From: Pseudanabaena cinerea FACHB-1277
GTDB taxonomy: Bacteria; Cyanobacteriota; Cyanobacteriia; Pseudanabaenales; Pseudanabaenaceae
NCBI RefSeq assembly: GCF_014696345.1
Contig: NZ_JACJPY010000007.1
Span: 48,423 to 112,422 of the forward strand
Length of the DNA stretch: 64,000 bases
Reading direction: 5' to 3'
Shown: positions 4,625-22,220 of the stretch, one piece after another
Layout of the letters: every line of letters starts with the position of its first letter
How positions within the stretch are numbered: position 1 is the first letter of the stretch
The notes under the pieces: generated by a model
Told to the model about the DNA's origin: nothing
Seen by the model: the letters and a program-made list of their open reading frames with translations, nothing else
Database searches by the model: none
Position numbers and translations under genes: made by a program

Positions 4625-5950
4625 ATGACTAAAAGGTTTTTCTCGGCATTCTGTCTGGCTATGTTGACGGTCATAACCACAGTTTGGATTGTGGCTTGTC
4701 AACCTAGCACTACAGTCAATGAAGCTCCTAGTACAGGCGCGAATAGTCCCAGCACAAGCAACAATGCCGCAAGTGGTGGCGCAAAGGATACTCTGCGCCT
4801 AGGAGCATTGTTACCTGCAACGGGGGATCTTTCTTCCATTGGTGCGCCGATGGGCAAATCCATTGATTTTTTAGTGGAAACCGTCAACAAATGCGGTGGC
4901 GTATTGGGTAAGCCCATCACTTTTATCAAAGAAGACGATCGCACCGATCCGCCCGCAGGTGCTGAAGCAATGACTAAGTTAGTCAAGGTCGATAATGTGG
5001 GGGCTGTGATTGGCTCCTTTGCCAGTAGCGTATCCACCGCCGCCCTCGCGATCGCCGTCCCTAACAAGGTAGTGATGATTTCCCCAGGTAGTACTAGCCC
5101 CGTCTTTACCGAAAGGGCAAAAAAAGGCGAATTTAACGGCTACTGGTATCGCACTGCCCCCCCTGACACTTACCAAGCCACAGCCCTAGCCAACTTAGCT
5201 TACAAAAAAGGAGCGAGAAAGGTTGCCACCCTTGTGATCAACAATGATTATGGCGTGGGCTTCGAGAAAGCTTTTGTGGAATCCTTTGAAAAACTAGGCG
5301 GCACAATCACCAATAAAAACCGCCCCACCCGTTACGATCCTAAGGCAACCACCTTTGATGCAGAGGCAAAGAGTGCCTTTGGCGGCAAACCTGATGCAGT
5401 AGCGGCGATTCTCTATCCTGACTCTGGCGGTGCGGTGATCAAAACTGCCTTTGAACAGGGGCTAACCCAAGGCGTACAGATTTTATTGACCGATGGTGTC
5501 AAAACCGAAGAATTTCCTAAGCTCATTGGCAATACTCCCGATGGCAAATTGATCTTGGCAGGGGCGATCGGTACTGTCCCTGGTGCAAGTGGCAAGTCCC
5601 TCGATACTTTTACCAAGAGCTTTAAGGAAAAAACAGGACAGGAGCTAGGGGCTTTTGTACCGCACTCCTACGATGCTGCCGCCTTAGTGGCGATCGCTGC
5701 TGAAGCCGCCAAGGATGGCACTGGTGAAGCAATCAAAGGCAAAATTCGGGAAATCGCCAATGCCCCTGGGCAAGAAGTCAGTGATGTGTGCGAAGCCCTA
5801 AAACTGGTAAAAGATGGCAAAGACATCAACTATCAGGGAGCGAGTGGTGATGTTGATCTTGACGAACTCGGTGATGTCAAGGGCAACTATGACGTATGGC
5901 AAGTGCAGCCCGATGGCAAAATCACGGTTATCGATCAAGTCTCTTCGTAA
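4625..5950 (+). CDS. ABC transporter substrate-binding protein (branched-chain amino acid type, lipoprotein)
   Basis: Lipobox-like VACQ; LRLGALLPATGDLSSIGAPMGKSIDFLVETVN; periplasmic-binding fold motifs. Confidence 0.88.
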   Translation: MTKRFFSAFCLAMLTVITTVWIVACQPSTTVNEAPSTGANSPSTSNNAASGGAKDTLRLGALLPATGDLSSIGAPMGKSIDFLVETVNKCGGVLGKPITFIKEDDRTDPPAGAEAMTKLVKVDNVGAVIGSFASSVSTAALAIAVPNKVVMISPGSTSPVFTERAKKGEFNGYWYRTAPPDTYQATALANLAYKKGARKVATLVINNDYGVGFEKAFVESFEKLGGTITNKNRPTRYDPKATTFDAEAKSAFGGKPDAVAAILYPDSGGAVIKTAFEQGLTQGVQILLTDGVKTEEFPKLIGNTPDGKLILAGAIGTVPGASGKSLDTFTKSFKEKTGQELGAFVPHSYDAAALVAIAAEAAKDGTGEAIKGKIREIANAPGQEVSDVCEALKLVKDGKDINYQGASGDVDLDELGDVKGNYDVWQVQPDGKITVIDQVSS

Positions 5951-7926: not shown

Positions 7927-8724
7927 ATGGCATTGAAAAAAGGAAAAACCCAAGAATTGCCCCAAACCACTAGTTCAGATGATCTTCAGGATAATCAGAG
8001 TGGCAGTCTTCGTGGGTTTCGGGAAACCCTTAAGGATGTTTTAGAAGATATTACGACTCTGGAAGTCAATACTATTGTCGTTAGTAATATTTCGACTGAT
8101 AAGTTTGATGCAAGGAAATTTTATGAAGATATTCTCAACAGCATTACTTACAAAATAGAAGATGTTTTGCAAGACAGGTACATTGAGCTATCTCAGAAGG
8201 CAGAGGCTCTTAGAAAAAAAGGTGCAGCTATTTCCTCCGAAGAACATAGCAGTTACAACAGCGAAGTTAGCGACTATGAAAAATTAAAGTCAAAGTTTGA
8301 CAAATATAAGCAGGACACTTTAGCTATTTCTCAAGCTCGGTTTGAGCAGGAACAAAAATACTATAAAGATGTGCAGCAGCAATTTAGCAAGTTAGACTTT
8401 AGTAAAAATATTAATCAAACTAGCAATCGCCTTGATCCTGATGCAGCCACCACTCGCTTTTTACGGAAGTTATGGGAGGCTGAACAAACTATTATTCACA
8501 ACGATCGCATTTATGCCCAGACTAGGTTTCAGCTTGATGGCGACCTAAGCAATCGCTTTATTGGAGATCTATTTGGGTTTGACAATTCCAAGCTTACCTC
8601 TGAAAAAGCACAATTAATTTTAAAGATCCATAATCAAGCTGTAGAAAATGCTGAATCACAATGGTCAAAGCTCATTAATACTGTTGTCGATCTAGTCACA
8701 AAATTGATTCCCTATCGTAAGTAA
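7927..8724 (+). CDS. Hypothetical coiled-coil protein
   Basis: 265 aa ORF with extended helical charged central region. Confidence 0.7.
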   Translation: MALKKGKTQELPQTTSSDDLQDNQSGSLRGFRETLKDVLEDITTLEVNTIVVSNISTDKFDARKFYEDILNSITYKIEDVLQDRYIELSQKAEALRKKGAAISSEEHSSYNSEVSDYEKLKSKFDKYKQDTLAISQARFEQEQKYYKDVQQQFSKLDFSKNINQTSNRLDPDAATTRFLRKLWEAEQTIIHNDRIYAQTRFQLDGDLSNRFIGDLFGFDNSKLTSEKAQLILKIHNQAVENAESQWSKLINTVVDLVTKLIPYRK

Positions 8725-8748: not shown

Positions 8749-9819
8749 ATGGCGATCGCATCAAGTTGGTTGACTATTGATGATGATGAATTGAAGTTGC
8801 AATTAAGCTTAGATGTTTTAATGCAGGTTGAAGCGGATATGGCTGAATTTGCTAGTCGAGATCGCACAGCAATTATTTATAAATTAGACAGTGAGCTACT
8901 ATTACCAGTTCTCGCTTCTGGATTTGGCATATCGAAGGCATTCAATGCTAAGGGGGCGATCGCCGTTTGGACCTATTACGATCAAATCTCTACTACAGTA
9001 CCAATTGTTAGGACTCTGCTAACCCTTGATGGCGATCTTAGTCAAAAGGTGAATCAACAATTTTTACAGAGTCCGATCGCAGAGAGAATTATCTCGGTTC
9101 ATAGCTTTTTGATCGGTCAAATATCACAGCAGATCGTCACAGTAATTACTGAGTATATTTACTTGCGATTGCAGCCATATGTTATAGGCTTTAGTACTTA
9201 CGTGGCTACGCGCCTGTATTTCTGCGATCCTATTCGTGCCATTATCGCCAAACTAGCCGATAGTTTGAGTATGCCAAATGAATTACAGACGGCATTACAG
9301 ACGGCAACTAATCATTTTACGGACTGCAATATTTTGGCAGTTTCTTTGACAGCAATAGCCCTATTGATTTGGTGGTTAGTTAGCAAATCGCCCTTAGCAT
9401 TTTTGCGGCAGTCTTTCCAATCGCCGAACTCCAAAGAAGGACAGATTTCTTCTATGGGGCAGTCATTTATTAAGTCCTTAAATCAGCTATGCTTTCGGAT
9501 ATTTAACAAGTCCTTAAATCAGTTGGGTGCGGATTTTTTAAAATTATTAGATAGCCGTTGGGCAAAAATCTTGGCGATCGCTTTACTCCTAGTTTTGGGC
9601 ATGAGTTGGCTATTAGAGTCACAAGGGATGCTGCTAAGTACGCAACAACGGACATCAGTCCATAAACTCGCAAGCTCTTTGGAGCCATTTTTACCATTGG
9701 CGATCATCAGTGTCAGGCAGAAAATTATATCTTGGTTGGGTAATATTTTCTTTGGTAATCCCTTGTCTTCTAAATTATTTATCAAATTATTTTTTGGGCG
9801 GTTTCTAACCATGAGATGA
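8749..9819 (+). CDS. Hypothetical membrane protein
   Basis: 356 aa ORF with several TM-like segments (ILAVSLTAIALLIWWLV; ILAIALLLVLGMSWLL). Confidence 0.65.
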   Translation: MAIASSWLTIDDDELKLQLSLDVLMQVEADMAEFASRDRTAIIYKLDSELLLPVLASGFGISKAFNAKGAIAVWTYYDQISTTVPIVRTLLTLDGDLSQKVNQQFLQSPIAERIISVHSFLIGQISQQIVTVITEYIYLRLQPYVIGFSTYVATRLYFCDPIRAIIAKLADSLSMPNELQTALQTATNHFTDCNILAVSLTAIALLIWWLVSKSPLAFLRQSFQSPNSKEGQISSMGQSFIKSLNQLCFRIFNKSLNQLGADFLKLLDSRWAKILAIALLLVLGMSWLLESQGMLLSTQQRTSVHKLASSLEPFLPLAIISVRQKIISWLGNIFFGNPLSSKLFIKLFFGRFLTMR

Positions 9820-16709: not shown

Positions 16710-16928
16710 ATGATTACATTTGAAAGTGAGCTTGATGCGGTTAGTCAGTTGTCAATCGATCAGCAGGAAATGTTAATTGATATTCTCAGAAAACGGAACG
16801 CTGAGGTGAGAAGGCGGCAGATTCTAGAGGAATGTCGTGAGGGTTTGGCTGAGTATCGTGCTGGTGTTTTAAAGGCTCAGACTGCGGAGGAAGCGATCGC
16901 CGATCTGCGTAGTTATGTAGAATCTTGA
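16710..16928 (+). CDS. Small antitoxin-like hypothetical protein (copy 1)
   Basis: 72 aa; near-identical paralog at 17814..18032. Confidence 0.65.
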   Translation: MITFESELDAVSQLSIDQQEMLIDILRKRNAEVRRRQILEECREGLAEYRAGVLKAQTAEEAIADLRSYVES

Positions 16929-16952
16929 TAGTGATTTAGTGAGGTTTTAAGA

Positions 16953-17184
16953 ATGAAATATCTAGCGCGAATTACCTTGGATTCTGATGTGATGGGTGGT
17001 AAGCCTTGCATTCGGGGAATGCGGGTGAATGTGGGTACATTGGTTGGGCTATTGGCGGTTGGACATTCGGTTGAAGAGATTTTAAAGGTTTATCCTTAAT
17101 TTAGAGAAAGAGGATATTATGGCAGCTTTGCCCTATGCGGCTTGGCGGTCTGAGGAGGTAGAGGCTGCTTTGGTGTCAGCATGA
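16953..17184 (+). pseudogene. DUF433 antitoxin-like gene, frameshifted
   Basis: MKYLARITLDSDVMGGKPCIRGMRVNVGTLVGLLAVGHSVEEILKVYP then TAA; 1-bp insertion near 17098 relative to the intact copy 18057..18287. Confidence 0.85.
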
Positions 17185-17260
17185 AAATATAGCCGATCGC
17201 CTATCTAAAAGATCTTGTAAAATGTCACTAGTAAAGTGATGCAGATCTACAAAACTTGTT

Positions 17261-17524
17261 TTGAATGGAAAAATGATGAATCGACAAAAACTTTTAGCTC
17301 GAATTTCCATAAATCCAAATATTTGTTTTGGTAAACCTTGCATTCGAGGTCATCGGATTTGGGTGTCTTTGATTCTTGATTTTTTGGCAAGTGGAATGAC
17401 GATCGCTGAATTAATTGAAGAGTATCCCCAATTACAGGTAGAAGATATTTATGCTTGTATTGCCTATGGTGCTGAAATGTCGCGGGATCGATATATTGAT
17501 ATTCCTTTGGAGCAAACTGCGTGA
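17261..17524 (+). CDS. DUF433 domain protein (antitoxin-like)
   Basis: LLARISINPNICFGKPCIRGHRIWVSLILDFLASGMTIAELIEEYPQLQVEDIYACIAYGAE. Confidence 0.85.
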   Translation: MNGKMMNRQKLLARISINPNICFGKPCIRGHRIWVSLILDFLASGMTIAELIEEYPQLQVEDIYACIAYGAEMSRDRYIDIPLEQTA

Positions 17525-17719
17525 AGCTGAAGTTAGATGAAAATTTGGGCGATCGCGGTATCATGCAATTACGACAAGCAGGGCATGATGTTGCGACTGT
17601 GGTGGCGCAAGGTTTGACATCTGATCGGTGGTTTGGATCGCGAGGATATAACTGGTAAGCTTTGGATAGTGCAACGCGGACGTATTCGCATTCACCAGCC
17701 TCTTTCTGATGATAATTAG
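17521..17719 (+). pseudogene. DUF5615 (PIN-like) toxin partner, internally deleted/frameshifted
   Basis: GTG start gives KLKLDENLGDRGIMQLRQAGHDVATVVAQGLTS; a shifted frame then gives GLDREDITGKLWIVQRGRIRIHQPLSDDN. Confidence 0.75.
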
Positions 17720-17813
17720 ACTTTTTAGCAAGAAAAAATTTCCCCTTTGCAATGCGATCGCCTATCTAAAAAATCTTGTAGAATATTACTAATCTGCTCG
17801 ATTAGGGTGAATT

Positions 17814-18032
17814 ATGATTACGTTTGAAAGTGCGCTTGATGCGGTTAGTCAGTTGTCAATCGATCAGCAGGAGATATTGATTGATATTCTCAGGAAACGG
17901 AATGCTGAGGTGAGAAGGCAGCAAATTCTAGAGAAATGTCGTGAGGGTTTGATTGAGTATCGCTCTGGTGTTTTAACGGCTCAGACTGGGGAGGAAGCGA
18001 TCGCCGATCTGCGTAGTTATGTACAATCTTGA
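17814..18032 (+). CDS. Small antitoxin-like hypothetical protein (copy 2)
   Basis: Paralog of 16710..16928. Confidence 0.65.
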   Translation: MITFESALDAVSQLSIDQQEILIDILRKRNAEVRRQQILEKCREGLIEYRSGVLTAQTGEEAIADLRSYVQS

Positions 18033-18056
18033 TAGTAATTTAGTGAGGTTTTAAGA

Positions 18057-18287
18057 ATGAAATACCTAGAGCGAATTACCTTGGATTCTCAAGTGATGGG
18101 CGGTAAGCCTTGTATTCGTGGAATGCGGGTTACTGTGGGTACGTTGGTTGGACTATTAGCGGTTGGACATTCGTTTGAAGAAATTTTAAATGCTTATCCT
18201 TATTTAGAGAAAGAGGATATTACGGCGGCGTTGTCCTATGCGGCTTGGCGGTCTGAGGAGGTTGAGGTTGCTTTGATGTCGGCATGA
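18057..18287 (+). CDS. DUF433 domain protein (antitoxin-like), intact
   Basis: LERITLDSQVMGGKPCIRGMRVTVGTLVGLLAVGHSFEEILNAYPYLEKEDITAALSYAAW. Confidence 0.88.
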   Translation: MKYLERITLDSQVMGGKPCIRGMRVTVGTLVGLLAVGHSFEEILNAYPYLEKEDITAALSYAAWRSEEVEVALMSA

Positions 18288-18346
18288 AGATTTTGAAGGT
18301 TGTAGGATATTATTGGATAATGTCACCTTATTAAAAAAATAAATTT

Positions 18347-18568
18347 ATGGATGGCGCTATTTTGATTCAACAAGCTTTGCAGCTTGATTTTACAGAAAGG
18401 ATTCATTTGATTGATGTTTTGTGGCACAGCCTTGATTCGTCAGATCGTGAAGAAATCGATTTGGCTTGGTTGCGTGAGTCTCAGAGCCGCCTAACTGCTT
18501 ATCAATCTGGTCAGATAGAGGCAATTGATGGACAAAGAGTTTTTGCTGAGATTGAGGCATTACTTTAA
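18347..18568 (+). CDS. Addiction module antitoxin-like protein
   Basis: 73 aa, immediately upstream of a ParE/RelE-like toxin gene. Confidence 0.75.
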   Translation: MDGAILIQQALQLDFTERIHLIDVLWHSLDSSDREEIDLAWLRESQSRLTAYQSGQIEAIDGQRVFAEIEALL

Positions 18569-18571
18569 ATT

Positions 18572-18868
18572 ATGGATGTCAAGTTTTTATCTCCAGCTAG
18601 AGACGAATTGAAACTAGCGATCGAGTTTTATGAGAAAAGTTCTGCGGGATTGGGTTCTCGTTTCTTGAATGAGGTGAAATCGTCTATTTCTCGAATTGTC
18701 AAAAATCCGCAAGCATGGAGTCTTTTGGATGACAAAATCCGTAGATGTAGATTACAGAGGTTCCCTTATGGAATTGTTTATGTAATCGAACAAGATGAGA
18801 TCGTCATTGTCTCAGTGATGCATTTACATCGCCATCCGCAGTCTTGGCAAAAGAACTTGAATAAGTAG
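18572..18868 (+). CDS. RelE/ParE-family toxin
   Basis: ARDELKLAIEFYEKSSAGLGSRFLNEVKSSISRIVKNPQAW...RCRLQRFPYGIVYVIEQDEIVIVSVMHLHRHPQSW. Confidence 0.88.
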   Translation: MDVKFLSPARDELKLAIEFYEKSSAGLGSRFLNEVKSSISRIVKNPQAWSLLDDKIRRCRLQRFPYGIVYVIEQDEIVIVSVMHLHRHPQSWQKNLNK

Positions 18869-18924: not shown

Positions 18925-21657
18925 ATGACAGATGCCGAACTACGAGCAATCATCGCCCAAGCAGAACGGGAGGGCTGGACAGAGTTGGATCTGTCGGGGA
19001 ACGATCTGGAAACTTTACCGCCCGAAATTGGACGGTTGCAAAGTCTGGAAAAGTTGATTTTAGGGAAGTGGTTTAGTGGGGGAAGAGGCAAAGGAAATCG
19101 TTTTACGGCTATTCCCCAAGAGATTTTTCAGTTAACTAATCTCAAAGAACTACGTATTGCACACAACCAAATCACAGCGATACAAGATGAGATCGCCAAC
19201 CTAAGCAATCTCATTTGGCTTTACCTCAGTGACAACCAAATCACGCAGATCCCAGATGCGATCGCCAACCTAACCAATCTCACTCAGCTTGACCTCAGAG
19301 ACAACCAAATCACTCAGATCCCAGATGCGATCGCCAACCTAACCAATCTCACTCAGCTTTACCTCGGAGACAACCAAATCACTCAGATCCCAGATGCGAT
19401 CGCAAATTTAACAAATCTTGAAATACTTGACCTCAGTGACAACCAAATCACTCAGATCCCAGATGCGATCGCAAACTTAACAAATCTTGAAATACTTGAC
19501 CTCATAGATAATCCCTTACCAATCCCACCCGAAATTCTCAATGACTATGAAAACCCTGCGGCAATTCTCAGATATTGGCAAAAGTTGCAACAAGATCAGC
19601 AAAATATAGAATTTATCGGAAGAGAAAGATACTTACAAATACTAAAAGACTCATTAAATGATCCAAATAGACGGATAGTTTTCATGCAGGGGAAGACAGG
19701 AATTGGAAAATCAGTACGACTATTGAATGAAGCGAAAGTAATCTTGATTGGACATGGGGCAGTCGGCAAAACCTCACTGGTGCGGCAATTGATCGATCGC
19801 AACTTCAAACCCGATGAAAACAAAACCGAAGGTATTGATATCAGACATTGGCAAATCACAGCCCGTGAAGAGAAAGTCAAGCTAAGAGTTTGGGACTTTG
19901 GCGGACAGGAGATTATGCACGCCACCCATCAGTTCTTTTTGACCGAGCGCAGCCTCTATCTTTTAGTACTCAATGCTCGCAAAGACGAAGGCAACAACGA
20001 TGTCGAATATTGGCTAAAAATTATTGAGAGCTTCGGCAAAGATGCCCCCGTCCTGATTATTGCCAACAAAAGCGATGAGCATCCTCTCAAACTCAACCGC
20101 CGCCACCTGCAAGCCAAATATCCCAACATTCAAGGCTTCTTTGAAACCTCCTGCAAAACAGGGACAGGCATTGACGAACTGCGCCAAGAAATCTATCGAC
20201 AAATCGCGGCAATGGATCATGTGTTTAATCCACTGCCCCAGCAATGGTTTCAACTCAAGGAGCAAATCGAACAGGACACCCGCGACCATATCAGCTATGG
20301 CGAATATGAGCGTATTTGCGATAATCAAAATATTAGCGATTCCCAAGAACGCCGCGACCTGATTCGCCTCCTACACCTATTGGGCATCGTCCTGAATTTC
20401 TCTGAAGATACTAGACTGCAAGACACCAGCGTTCTCAATCCCGAATGGGTCACAGGCGGCGTATATCGCATTCTCAATGACAATCAACTCAGCACCAAAC
20501 AAAAGGGAATGCTCGATTGGCAAAACCTCACCCGCGTTCTCAAACCCAAAAATCAAAGCGATCGCGACTGTTATCATAATGACCGCGATCGGCAATTCAT
20601 CATCGACATGATGCAAAAATTCGAGCTATGTTTTCCCCTTGATGCTAATCCCAATAAACCCACTTACCTAATTCCCGAACTCCTTGACGAAGAAGAACCC
20701 GACACAGGCACATGGGAAAACACCCTAAACCTTGAATATCACTACAAAATTCTATTTAGCAGCGTCATTTCCCGCTTCATAGTCAAAATGCACCACAGCA
20801 TCTCTAAACGCACCTACTGGCGCACTGGCGTAATCCTCGCATTCCCCGAAGGCAATCGCGCCTACATCAAAGCCGATCTCGCCGATGCGAAAATCTTCAT
20901 CCGTATTGATGGCAATCCCAACACCCGCCGATCTTCCCTCGCCGCCATTCGCAATACCTTTGAATCGATCCATCACAGCATCTCGGCTCTAGAAGTCGAT
21001 GAGCGTGTTCCATTGCCTGACAATCCTAAAGTTACGGTGAGTTATAACCATTTGATTAGTCTTGAGCAAAGAGGAAAAACAGACTATTCTCCTGAAGGTA
21101 GCGATCGTGATTACAATATCCGCGAATTACTTGACGGCATCGAAGCCATAGAAGCACGTCAAAAAGTGAACAAGAGAGATCAGTCATACGAAGATATGCG
21201 CGACATTGCTAAACTAGCTGTCAGTAGACCAATTATCAATAAAGCAGAGGCAAATGCTATGTCACAAGAATCTAAATATACAACTAACCTTCAAGGCGCA
21301 AACATTGCTAACTTTGCCAATGAAGTCAAAGACAACGCCAGTCTACAAGCTTCTCATATCACCCAAACAAGCGGCGCAAGCGTAGCCGAACTACTGCAAC
21401 TAATCACCAACCTCCGTCAAACCGCCGATCAATTTCCGTCAGACATTCGCGAAGAACTCATCATTGATGTCGAAGATGTCGAACTTGAAATACAGAAACC
21501 CTCACCAGAACGCAACCTTCCCAAACTCAAAAAAAGACTACTAGCACTATTCACTGCTGCCACCGTCACCTTTGGCGCGATCGCAAGTACAACCGACTTC
21601 GCTAACAATGTTCTGGAAATAAGCAATAAACTAGGCATTGAGTTAATTAAGCATTAA
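18925..21657 (+). CDS. Roco-type protein: leucine-rich repeats, Roc GTPase, COR-like region, cyanobacterial C-terminal tail
   Basis: LRRs (NQITQIPDAIANLTNL...), Roc P-loop GHGAVGKTSLVRQLI, DFGGQEIMHATHQFFL, NKSD, COR-like sequence. Confidence 0.9.
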   Translation: MTDAELRAIIAQAEREGWTELDLSGNDLETLPPEIGRLQSLEKLILGKWFSGGRGKGNRFTAIPQEIFQLTNLKELRIAHNQITAIQDEIANLSNLIWLYLSDNQITQIPDAIANLTNLTQLDLRDNQITQIPDAIANLTNLTQLYLGDNQITQIPDAIANLTNLEILDLSDNQITQIPDAIANLTNLEILDLIDNPLPIPPEILNDYENPAAILRYWQKLQQDQQNIEFIGRERYLQILKDSLNDPNRRIVFMQGKTGIGKSVRLLNEAKVILIGHGAVGKTSLVRQLIDRNFKPDENKTEGIDIRHWQITAREEKVKLRVWDFGGQEIMHATHQFFLTERSLYLLVLNARKDEGNNDVEYWLKIIESFGKDAPVLIIANKSDEHPLKLNRRHLQAKYPNIQGFFETSCKTGTGIDELRQEIYRQIAAMDHVFNPLPQQWFQLKEQIEQDTRDHISYGEYERICDNQNISDSQERRDLIRLLHLLGIVLNFSEDTRLQDTSVLNPEWVTGGVYRILNDNQLSTKQKGMLDWQNLTRVLKPKNQSDRDCYHNDRDRQFIIDMMQKFELCFPLDANPNKPTYLIPELLDEEEPDTGTWENTLNLEYHYKILFSSVISRFIVKMHHSISKRTYWRTGVILAFPEGNRAYIKADLADAKIFIRIDGNPNTRRSSLAAIRNTFESIHHSISALEVDERVPLPDNPKVTVSYNHLISLEQRGKTDYSPEGSDRDYNIRELLDGIEAIEARQKVNKRDQSYEDMRDIAKLAVSRPIINKAEANAMSQESKYTTNLQGANIANFANEVKDNASLQASHITQTSGASVAELLQLITNLRQTADQFPSDIREELIIDVEDVELEIQKPSPERNLPKLKKRLLALFTAATVTFGAIASTTDFANNVLEISNKLGIELIKH
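19232..19507 (+). repeat. Near-identical 69-bp tandem repeats encoding 23-aa LRRs
   Basis: Repeated gacaaccaaatcactcagatcccagatgcgatcgc(c)aacctaaccaatctc units. Confidence 0.9.
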
Positions 21658-21824
21658 CGAAATTTACAAACGCATACTCCTATTGATTCAAGGCAAATCA
21701 CCCAATACAGACGTAGGGGCAAAGCATTCCCGCAAAAATCCATAACTTTGCAGATTCCCTTAATTCGGGAATGCTCTGCCCTGAACCTCACAACGCAGGG
21801 ACAATTTATCGGTGAAAGCAAAGA

Positions 21825-21891
21825 GGGTAGAGCATTTGCAAAATGAGATTTTGGTGGAGAGTTGGCAGATTGTGGTGCAAATGCTCTACCC
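21825..21891. repeat. Inverted repeat, 15-bp arms
   Basis: gggtagagcatttgc ... gcaaatgctctaccc; a second related pair lies at about 21717-21782. Confidence 0.75.
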
Positions 21892-21932
21892 CTACAGAAG
21901 GAAATATTATCTTAGATATTGAGGTAAAACTA

Positions 21933-22220
21933 ATGCTTCCCCCACCTAAACTCAACCTCTTAGACATTGTTGCTCTAAAAAACGACCTACCCCAACACCA
22001 ACTCCTAGCAGGACAAGTCGGAACCATCGTTGAAATCCTTGCCCCCGAAGTTTACGAAGTCGAATTTAGCGATGATGACGGTCAAACCTACGCCACCCAA
22101 GCCCTGCCAAATCATCAACTCCTAAAACTACACTATAAACCCATCGCCAATATGACCGACTTTGCCAATAACGTCATGGAAATTGGCAGCAAATTGGGTA
22201 TAGAACTCATCAAACAATAA
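21933..22220 (+). CDS. DUF4926-like small protein with C-terminal tail shared with the adjacent Roco protein
   Basis: LNLLDIVALKNDLPQHQLLAGQVGTIVEILAPEVYEVEFSDDDGQTYA...; tail TDFANNVMEIGSKLGIELIK. Confidence 0.8.
   Translation: MLPPPKLNLLDIVALKNDLPQHQLLAGQVGTIVEILAPEVYEVEFSDDDGQTYATQALPNHQLLKLHYKPIANMTDFANNVMEIGSKLGIELIKQ

Follow-up and report, generated by a model that had tools for sequence, protein, structure and literature searches.

The window analysed here is a stretch of 64,000 nucleotides from Pseudanabaena cinerea FACHB-1277. On its forward strand, at 18925-21657, lies the gene of a Roco protein of 910 amino acids, in which LRRs are followed by Roc, COR-A, COR-B and a C-terminal module. 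The Pfam matches are strong (Roc E=3.7e-31, COR-A 1.2e-40, COR-B 3.4e-33), and several LRR models also score above their cut-offs. A Roc GTPase followed by COR (PF08477, PF16095 and PF25497, all above cut-off), together with the N-terminal LRRs and a C-terminal accessory domain, identifies the protein as an AP-GTPase. The accessory domain is the module, which covers residues 788-910 (21286-21654, forward strand), is complete as judged by end-to-end alignment with the modules of other Roco and DUF4926 proteins, and ends in the tail TTDFANNVLEISNKLGIELIKH (21589-21654). At the DNA level, the segment 21185-21895 is 84% identical to a Roco of Pseudanabaena ULC187bin1 that has the same single-gene layout (type A, see below). 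As a separate observation, residues 229-264 (19609-19716), between the LRRs and Roc, form an extra stretch, FIGRERYLQILKDSLNDPNRRIVFMQGKTGIGKS, that has its own P-loop and a weak AAA_16 match (E=1.7e-5), and that is missing from the six sibling Roco proteins compared.

Downstream on the same strand lies a gene for a 95-residue protein that starts at the ATG at 21933 and extends to 22220; an alternative ATG at 21843 would give 125 residues. The earlier note described this protein as DUF4926-like, and it is indeed a true DUF4926 protein, since it matches Pfam PF16277 with E=1.6e-23 and 82.3 bits against a curated cut-off of 29.1. Between the two genes lies a dispersed repeat (21713-21897), with about 20-30 partial matches in the genome at up to 80% identity over ~185 bp, and this repeat sits where relatives have a DUF6883 gene. 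The repeat also carries an inverted GGGAATGCTYTGCCC motif, at 21717 and 21767.

The small protein ends in MTDFANNVMEIGSKLGIELIKQ (22152-22217, forward strand), and 17 of its last 22 residues are identical to those of the Roco tail. The shared ending reported in the earlier note is thus present in the open reading frames. Among the 22 codons compared, 4 are identical, 13 synonymous and 5 non-synonymous, so that synonymous changes account for 13 of the 18 differences, which bears out the view that the shared sequence is old and under selection at the protein level. A search of the whole genome matches the two tails over 28 residues with E=2.8e-6, on which grounds chance likeness was rejected, and it finds copies of the tail in these two proteins only.

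The likeness does not begin at the tail, however. In intact homologues it extends upstream over ~120 residues. Three congeneric Pseudanabaena species (genomes G024, G018 and G017, loci L118, L119 and L113, respectively) have a DUF4926 protein of 223 residues, counted from the ATG, which consists of DUF4926, a Gly-Asp-Lys-rich linker such as INQYGSGDNIAGDKVMGSKI, and a module of about 120 residues with the same tail at its end. Residues 788-910 of the Roco protein align along their full length with this module, which means that the Roco and the longer DUF4926 proteins share the whole of it. The idea of a short tag appended to many unrelated proteins was rejected, since the homologues have the whole module.

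Aligned to the 223-residue form, the small protein of the window matches at both ends, and 128 codons that separate the DUF4926 domain from the last helix are missing from it, in frame. The junction KLHYKP|IANMTDF lies at 22137-22146 on the forward strand. The intact L113 gene reads AAACCTATG at the left end of the deletion and ACACCAATCGC at the right end, and the window reads AAACCCATCGCC, as expected for a join at the short match ACC.AT; the junction thus fits a deletion between short matching sequences. The deletion may be an event of this single isolate, and among the DUF4926 proteins fetched no other was reduced to DUF4926 and the last helix. The DUF4926 domain itself shows no relaxation of selection, with dN/dS of about 0.06-0.18 against the intact orthologues. 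Since the reading frame was also kept, the cell may still produce the short protein and benefit from it.

The intact L118 protein was modelled with AlphaFold2 from 39 aligned sequences. The model has low confidence before residue 131, and residues 131-221 form a four-helix bundle with pLDDT of about 80-92, in which the tail is helix 4 alone (residues 202-215). For the 95-residue protein the corresponding model has low confidence throughout (mean pLDDT 43.8), and says nothing for or against a folded tail. The module falls under no Pfam family; DUF5955 is matched by 4 of 39 members, at E=0.014 at best, and sequence comparison with solved structures gave nothing convincing for either the module or DUF6883. 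The source genome contains only one full module, that of the Roco.

We now consider how the module is distributed. A profile search detected it in 26 of 386 cyanobacterial genomes and, among GTDB contigs, at 48 loci. The unique carriers comprise 38 Roco proteins, 16 DUF4926 proteins and 24 others or fragments, including pentapeptide-repeat proteins. Two layouts dominate, in proportions that are biased toward module carriers because the loci were collected by a module search. In type A, LRR, Roc, COR and module are encoded in a single gene. In type B, an LRR-Roc-COR gene ends in a GDN/GDK linker and is followed by DUF6883 and then by a gene for DUF4926, linker and module. Ten type B loci have full-length DUF6883 matches, and at seven of them the end of the COR-bearing gene overlaps DUF6883 in an ATGA. 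At L119 (4558-5368) and L146 (4424-5311), ~900 bp separate the two genes, and the gap at L119 holds a gene for 270 residues that has no Pfam match and ends in the same GDN/GDK linker. At other module loci DUF6883 or DUF4926 is truncated. L144 has neither DUF6883 nor DUF4926, and COR there continues into linker and module, which looks like loss of the cassette. The G017 locus (L074/L113) is nearly a mirror image of the window, with a truncated Roco module, a DUF6883 fragment and a DUF4926 gene with the full module.

Two further loci may be mentioned here for their own sake. In Pseudanabaena biceps O153 (L072), a DUF4926 fragment (8103-8402) is followed after 30 bp by an isolated Roco LRR start, 2 kb ahead of the intact operon. 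A carrier of 155 residues (L110) has an N-terminus like those of L094 and L096 that runs straight into the final ~60 module residues, apparently another internal deletion.

The linkage between the two kinds of gene is regular. In all 16 fetched loci that have a DUF4926-module gene or fragment and adequate upstream sequence, Roc/COR lies upstream on the same strand, and no Roc/COR was found in the fetched flanks of the module-free DUF4926 genes of the genus. Therefore, the Roco-DUF4926 link is real and belongs to the module. The earlier note had taken the tail for a tag that links a small partner to the GTPase, and had suggested searching cyanobacteria for the motif and asking which domains and neighbours its carriers have. 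The association with Roco stands and recurs. A 22-residue tag is not supported, however; the homologues have the whole module, of which the tail is the fourth helix, and the link rests on the whole module (and linker).

We turn next to what surrounds the small gene in the window. No DUF6883 lies directly upstream of it, as neither the matches listed for the contig nor tblastn near the gene (L034/L041) contains one. Homology to the type B relative L071 starts at 21912, opposite position 9421 of L071, which is inside its DUF6883 (the reading frame ends at 9436). The forward-strand stretch 21912-21932, which in alignments with relatives falls on the final bases of their DUF6883 and on their DUF4926 leader, is therefore likely, judging from this alignment, to be all that remains of DUF6883 here, although it could also be simply the conserved ribosome-binding region of DUF4926. 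In the source genome as a whole, 9 DUF4926 and 7 DUF6883 matches form 6 adjacent pairs, and the DUF4926 of the window is unpaired. The cluster lies beside uvrA in the source genome only, and in none of the 24 congeners with at least 1.4 kb of sequence beyond uvrA are Roco/DUF4926 genes found there, so the cluster is not at a conserved site and these congeners offer no intact orthologous one.

The same island contains a second deletion. The gene at 17521-17748 on the forward strand, which we take to belong to the DUF5615-like family, has an internal deletion of 176 bp at 17621/17622, its flanks being 97% and 94% identical to positions 5113-5585 and 5762-5888 of L071. The DUF433 gene beside it is intact. 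More generally, the upstream island (16710-18868) is made up of small genes, including members of the DUF433, Unstab_antitox and ParE_toxin families, and has a duplicated unit of a 72-residue gene and DUF433 (16710-17099 and 17814-18287).

The explanation that we prefer, at a probability of roughly 85%, is that the tail of the small protein is the remnant of a larger module left by an in-frame deletion, in a presumed Roco-type conflict cluster whose link is probably broken in the window. It draws its support from the 223-residue homologues, which in three congeners carry the whole module before the same tail, and from the junction, where a clean gap keeps the frame and short microhomology is present. 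Further support comes from the four-helix model, the Roc/COR genes upstream of the DUF4926-module genes and their absence near the module-free ones, the unpaired state of the DUF4926 of the window, the second deletion in the island, the published variety of C-terminal domains in AP-GTPases and the similarity of the module to PDC-M14B. The lack of relaxed selection on DUF4926, the kept frame and the conserved residues of the tail count against it. The ancestral gene would have encoded DUF4926, a GDN/GDK-rich linker and the module of ~120 residues, a predicted four-helix bundle, and would have followed a Roco GTPase gene and DUF6883. In the source genome, DUF6883 has been lost and the DUF4926 gene has a deletion of 384 bp that leaves helix 4 alone; the adjacent Roco retains its own complete copy. 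The Roco would serve as a sensor or switch, an LRR-GTPase of the conflict type known from bacterial AP-GTPases, DUF6883-DUF4926 would be a toxin-antitoxin-type pair, and the module would be a terminal adaptor resembling effector-associated domains, with DUF4926 tied to the Roco pathway through contacts of the module or linker. The locus in the window is an eroded hybrid: the module is still present on the Roco, no DUF6883 is left, and DUF4926, probably a former antitoxin, is an orphan whose link to the Roco is probably broken.

It is possible to read the same tail in other ways. One option, in line with the earlier note, has the tail work as a docking tag through which the 95-residue protein binds the Roco, with helix 4, for instance, entering the Roco module or swapping with part of it. 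The in-frame deletion, the conserved residues, most of which are retained in the tail, the purifying selection on DUF4926 and the recurrence of the Roco-DUF4926 linkage would all agree with this. Only one of the four helices is left, however, and none of the other fetched DUF4926 proteins has been cut down in this way; we consider this option improbable.

Another option is that the tail was copied from the 3′ end of the adjacent Roco, which duplication or gene conversion would have added to a DUF4926 gene that had always been without a module. Apart from the fact that the two copies adjoin, the comparisons speak against it. The homologous DUF4926 genes of the three congeners have the module at that very position, and the tail of the small protein shares 22 of 25 residues with the L113 DUF4926-module protein, a match that takes in the preceding PIANM, compared to 19 of 25 with the Roco next to it. 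The nucleotide identities lean the same way, albeit weakly, as the differences are small (51/75 to the adjacent Roco, 55-59/75 to the DUF4926 homologues). The tail was thus not evidently copied from its neighbour, and this scenario is disfavoured to the point of being very improbable. Finally, the module could have been collapsed during assembly, the genome being a draft of 179 contigs. A collapse would need a near-identical second copy, and the genome has a single full module, whose tail differs from that of the small protein at 22 of 66 bases. An artefact of this kind is accordingly given hardly any weight.

Returning to the remnant reading, the type B layout would have arisen when the DUF6883-DUF4926 pair entered the Roco linker, as a result of which DUF4926 gained the module. 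In an extended version of this scenario, which we put forward tentatively and regard as rather doubtful, the pair was inserted in this way in several cyanobacteria, the presumed antitoxin captured the C-terminal adaptor of the GTPase, the GTPase switch would control release of the toxin via that adaptor, and the linker repeats on both halves would hold the split pieces together.

The tail itself is then a case of ordinary decay, and it is the intact Roco-DUF6883-DUF4926 arrangement that is worth following. It ties LRR-GTPases, members of the same family as human LRRK2 and DAPK1, to a pair of genes that resembles a toxin-antitoxin system, and small cultivable systems, such as Pseudanabaena mucicola and Nostoc, are suited to a direct test of the output of a bacterial Roco.

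As to known systems, the ordinary DUF6883-DUF4926 pairs have DUF4926 directly downstream of DUF6883, both in the six pairs of the source genome and in the Roco operons. The window differs from the ordinary pairs in having no DUF6883 and in a C-terminal extension of DUF4926 that those pairs lack. A search of viral contigs for DUF6883 gave one relative only, and our literature search found no paper that mentions DUF6883 and none that combines Roco with anti-phage defence.

For the module, all fold matches in the PDB are non-significant; the best is bAvd of the diversity-generating retroelements, also a four-helix bundle (Foldseek E=0.56, probability 0.97, TM about 0.6 on the target). By sequence, the module matches the last ~110 of the 261 positions of PDC-M14B, a phage-defence candidate of PADLOC. 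The best-model E values for four members range from 2e-5 to 9e-10 (3e-7 for the Roco module of the window, 6e-6 and 2e-5 for those of L114 and L139, and 9e-10 for the pentapeptide-repeat carrier L153), and five controls made from the window module, four by shuffling and one by reversal, gave no match. The N-terminal ~150 residues of PDC-M14B are unmatched, so the similarity is not full-length, and the 146 cyanobacterial genomes searched contain no PDC-M14B match at E<=1e-6.

The closest parallel is found among the Roco-type AP-GTPases of bacteria, which have LRRs and a C-terminal domain that varies, and which have been proposed to be counter-invader systems (PMC8195603); at least 24 variable C-terminal effector or effector-associated domains are shown for them in Fig. 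6D of that paper (Kaur et al. 2021). As for effector-associated domains, a core protein and its effectors, often encoded in neighbouring genes, have such small terminal adaptors in common (PMC8195603; PMC7159879). The module has the same traits, being a small terminal helical domain, according to the four-helix model, that occurs on different partners and often in neighbouring genes, according to the list of carriers. Like those conflict systems, the proteins described here combine an LRR-Roc-COR core with a C-terminal domain that can be exchanged; the parts of PMC8195603 consulted make no mention of DUF6883, DUF4926 or the module, nor do they contain the split form with the module on a neighbouring DUF4926 protein. 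Roco proteins with variable C-terminal domains are thus already described as conflict systems, and the Roco-DUF6883-DUF4926 arrangement is a variant new among them.
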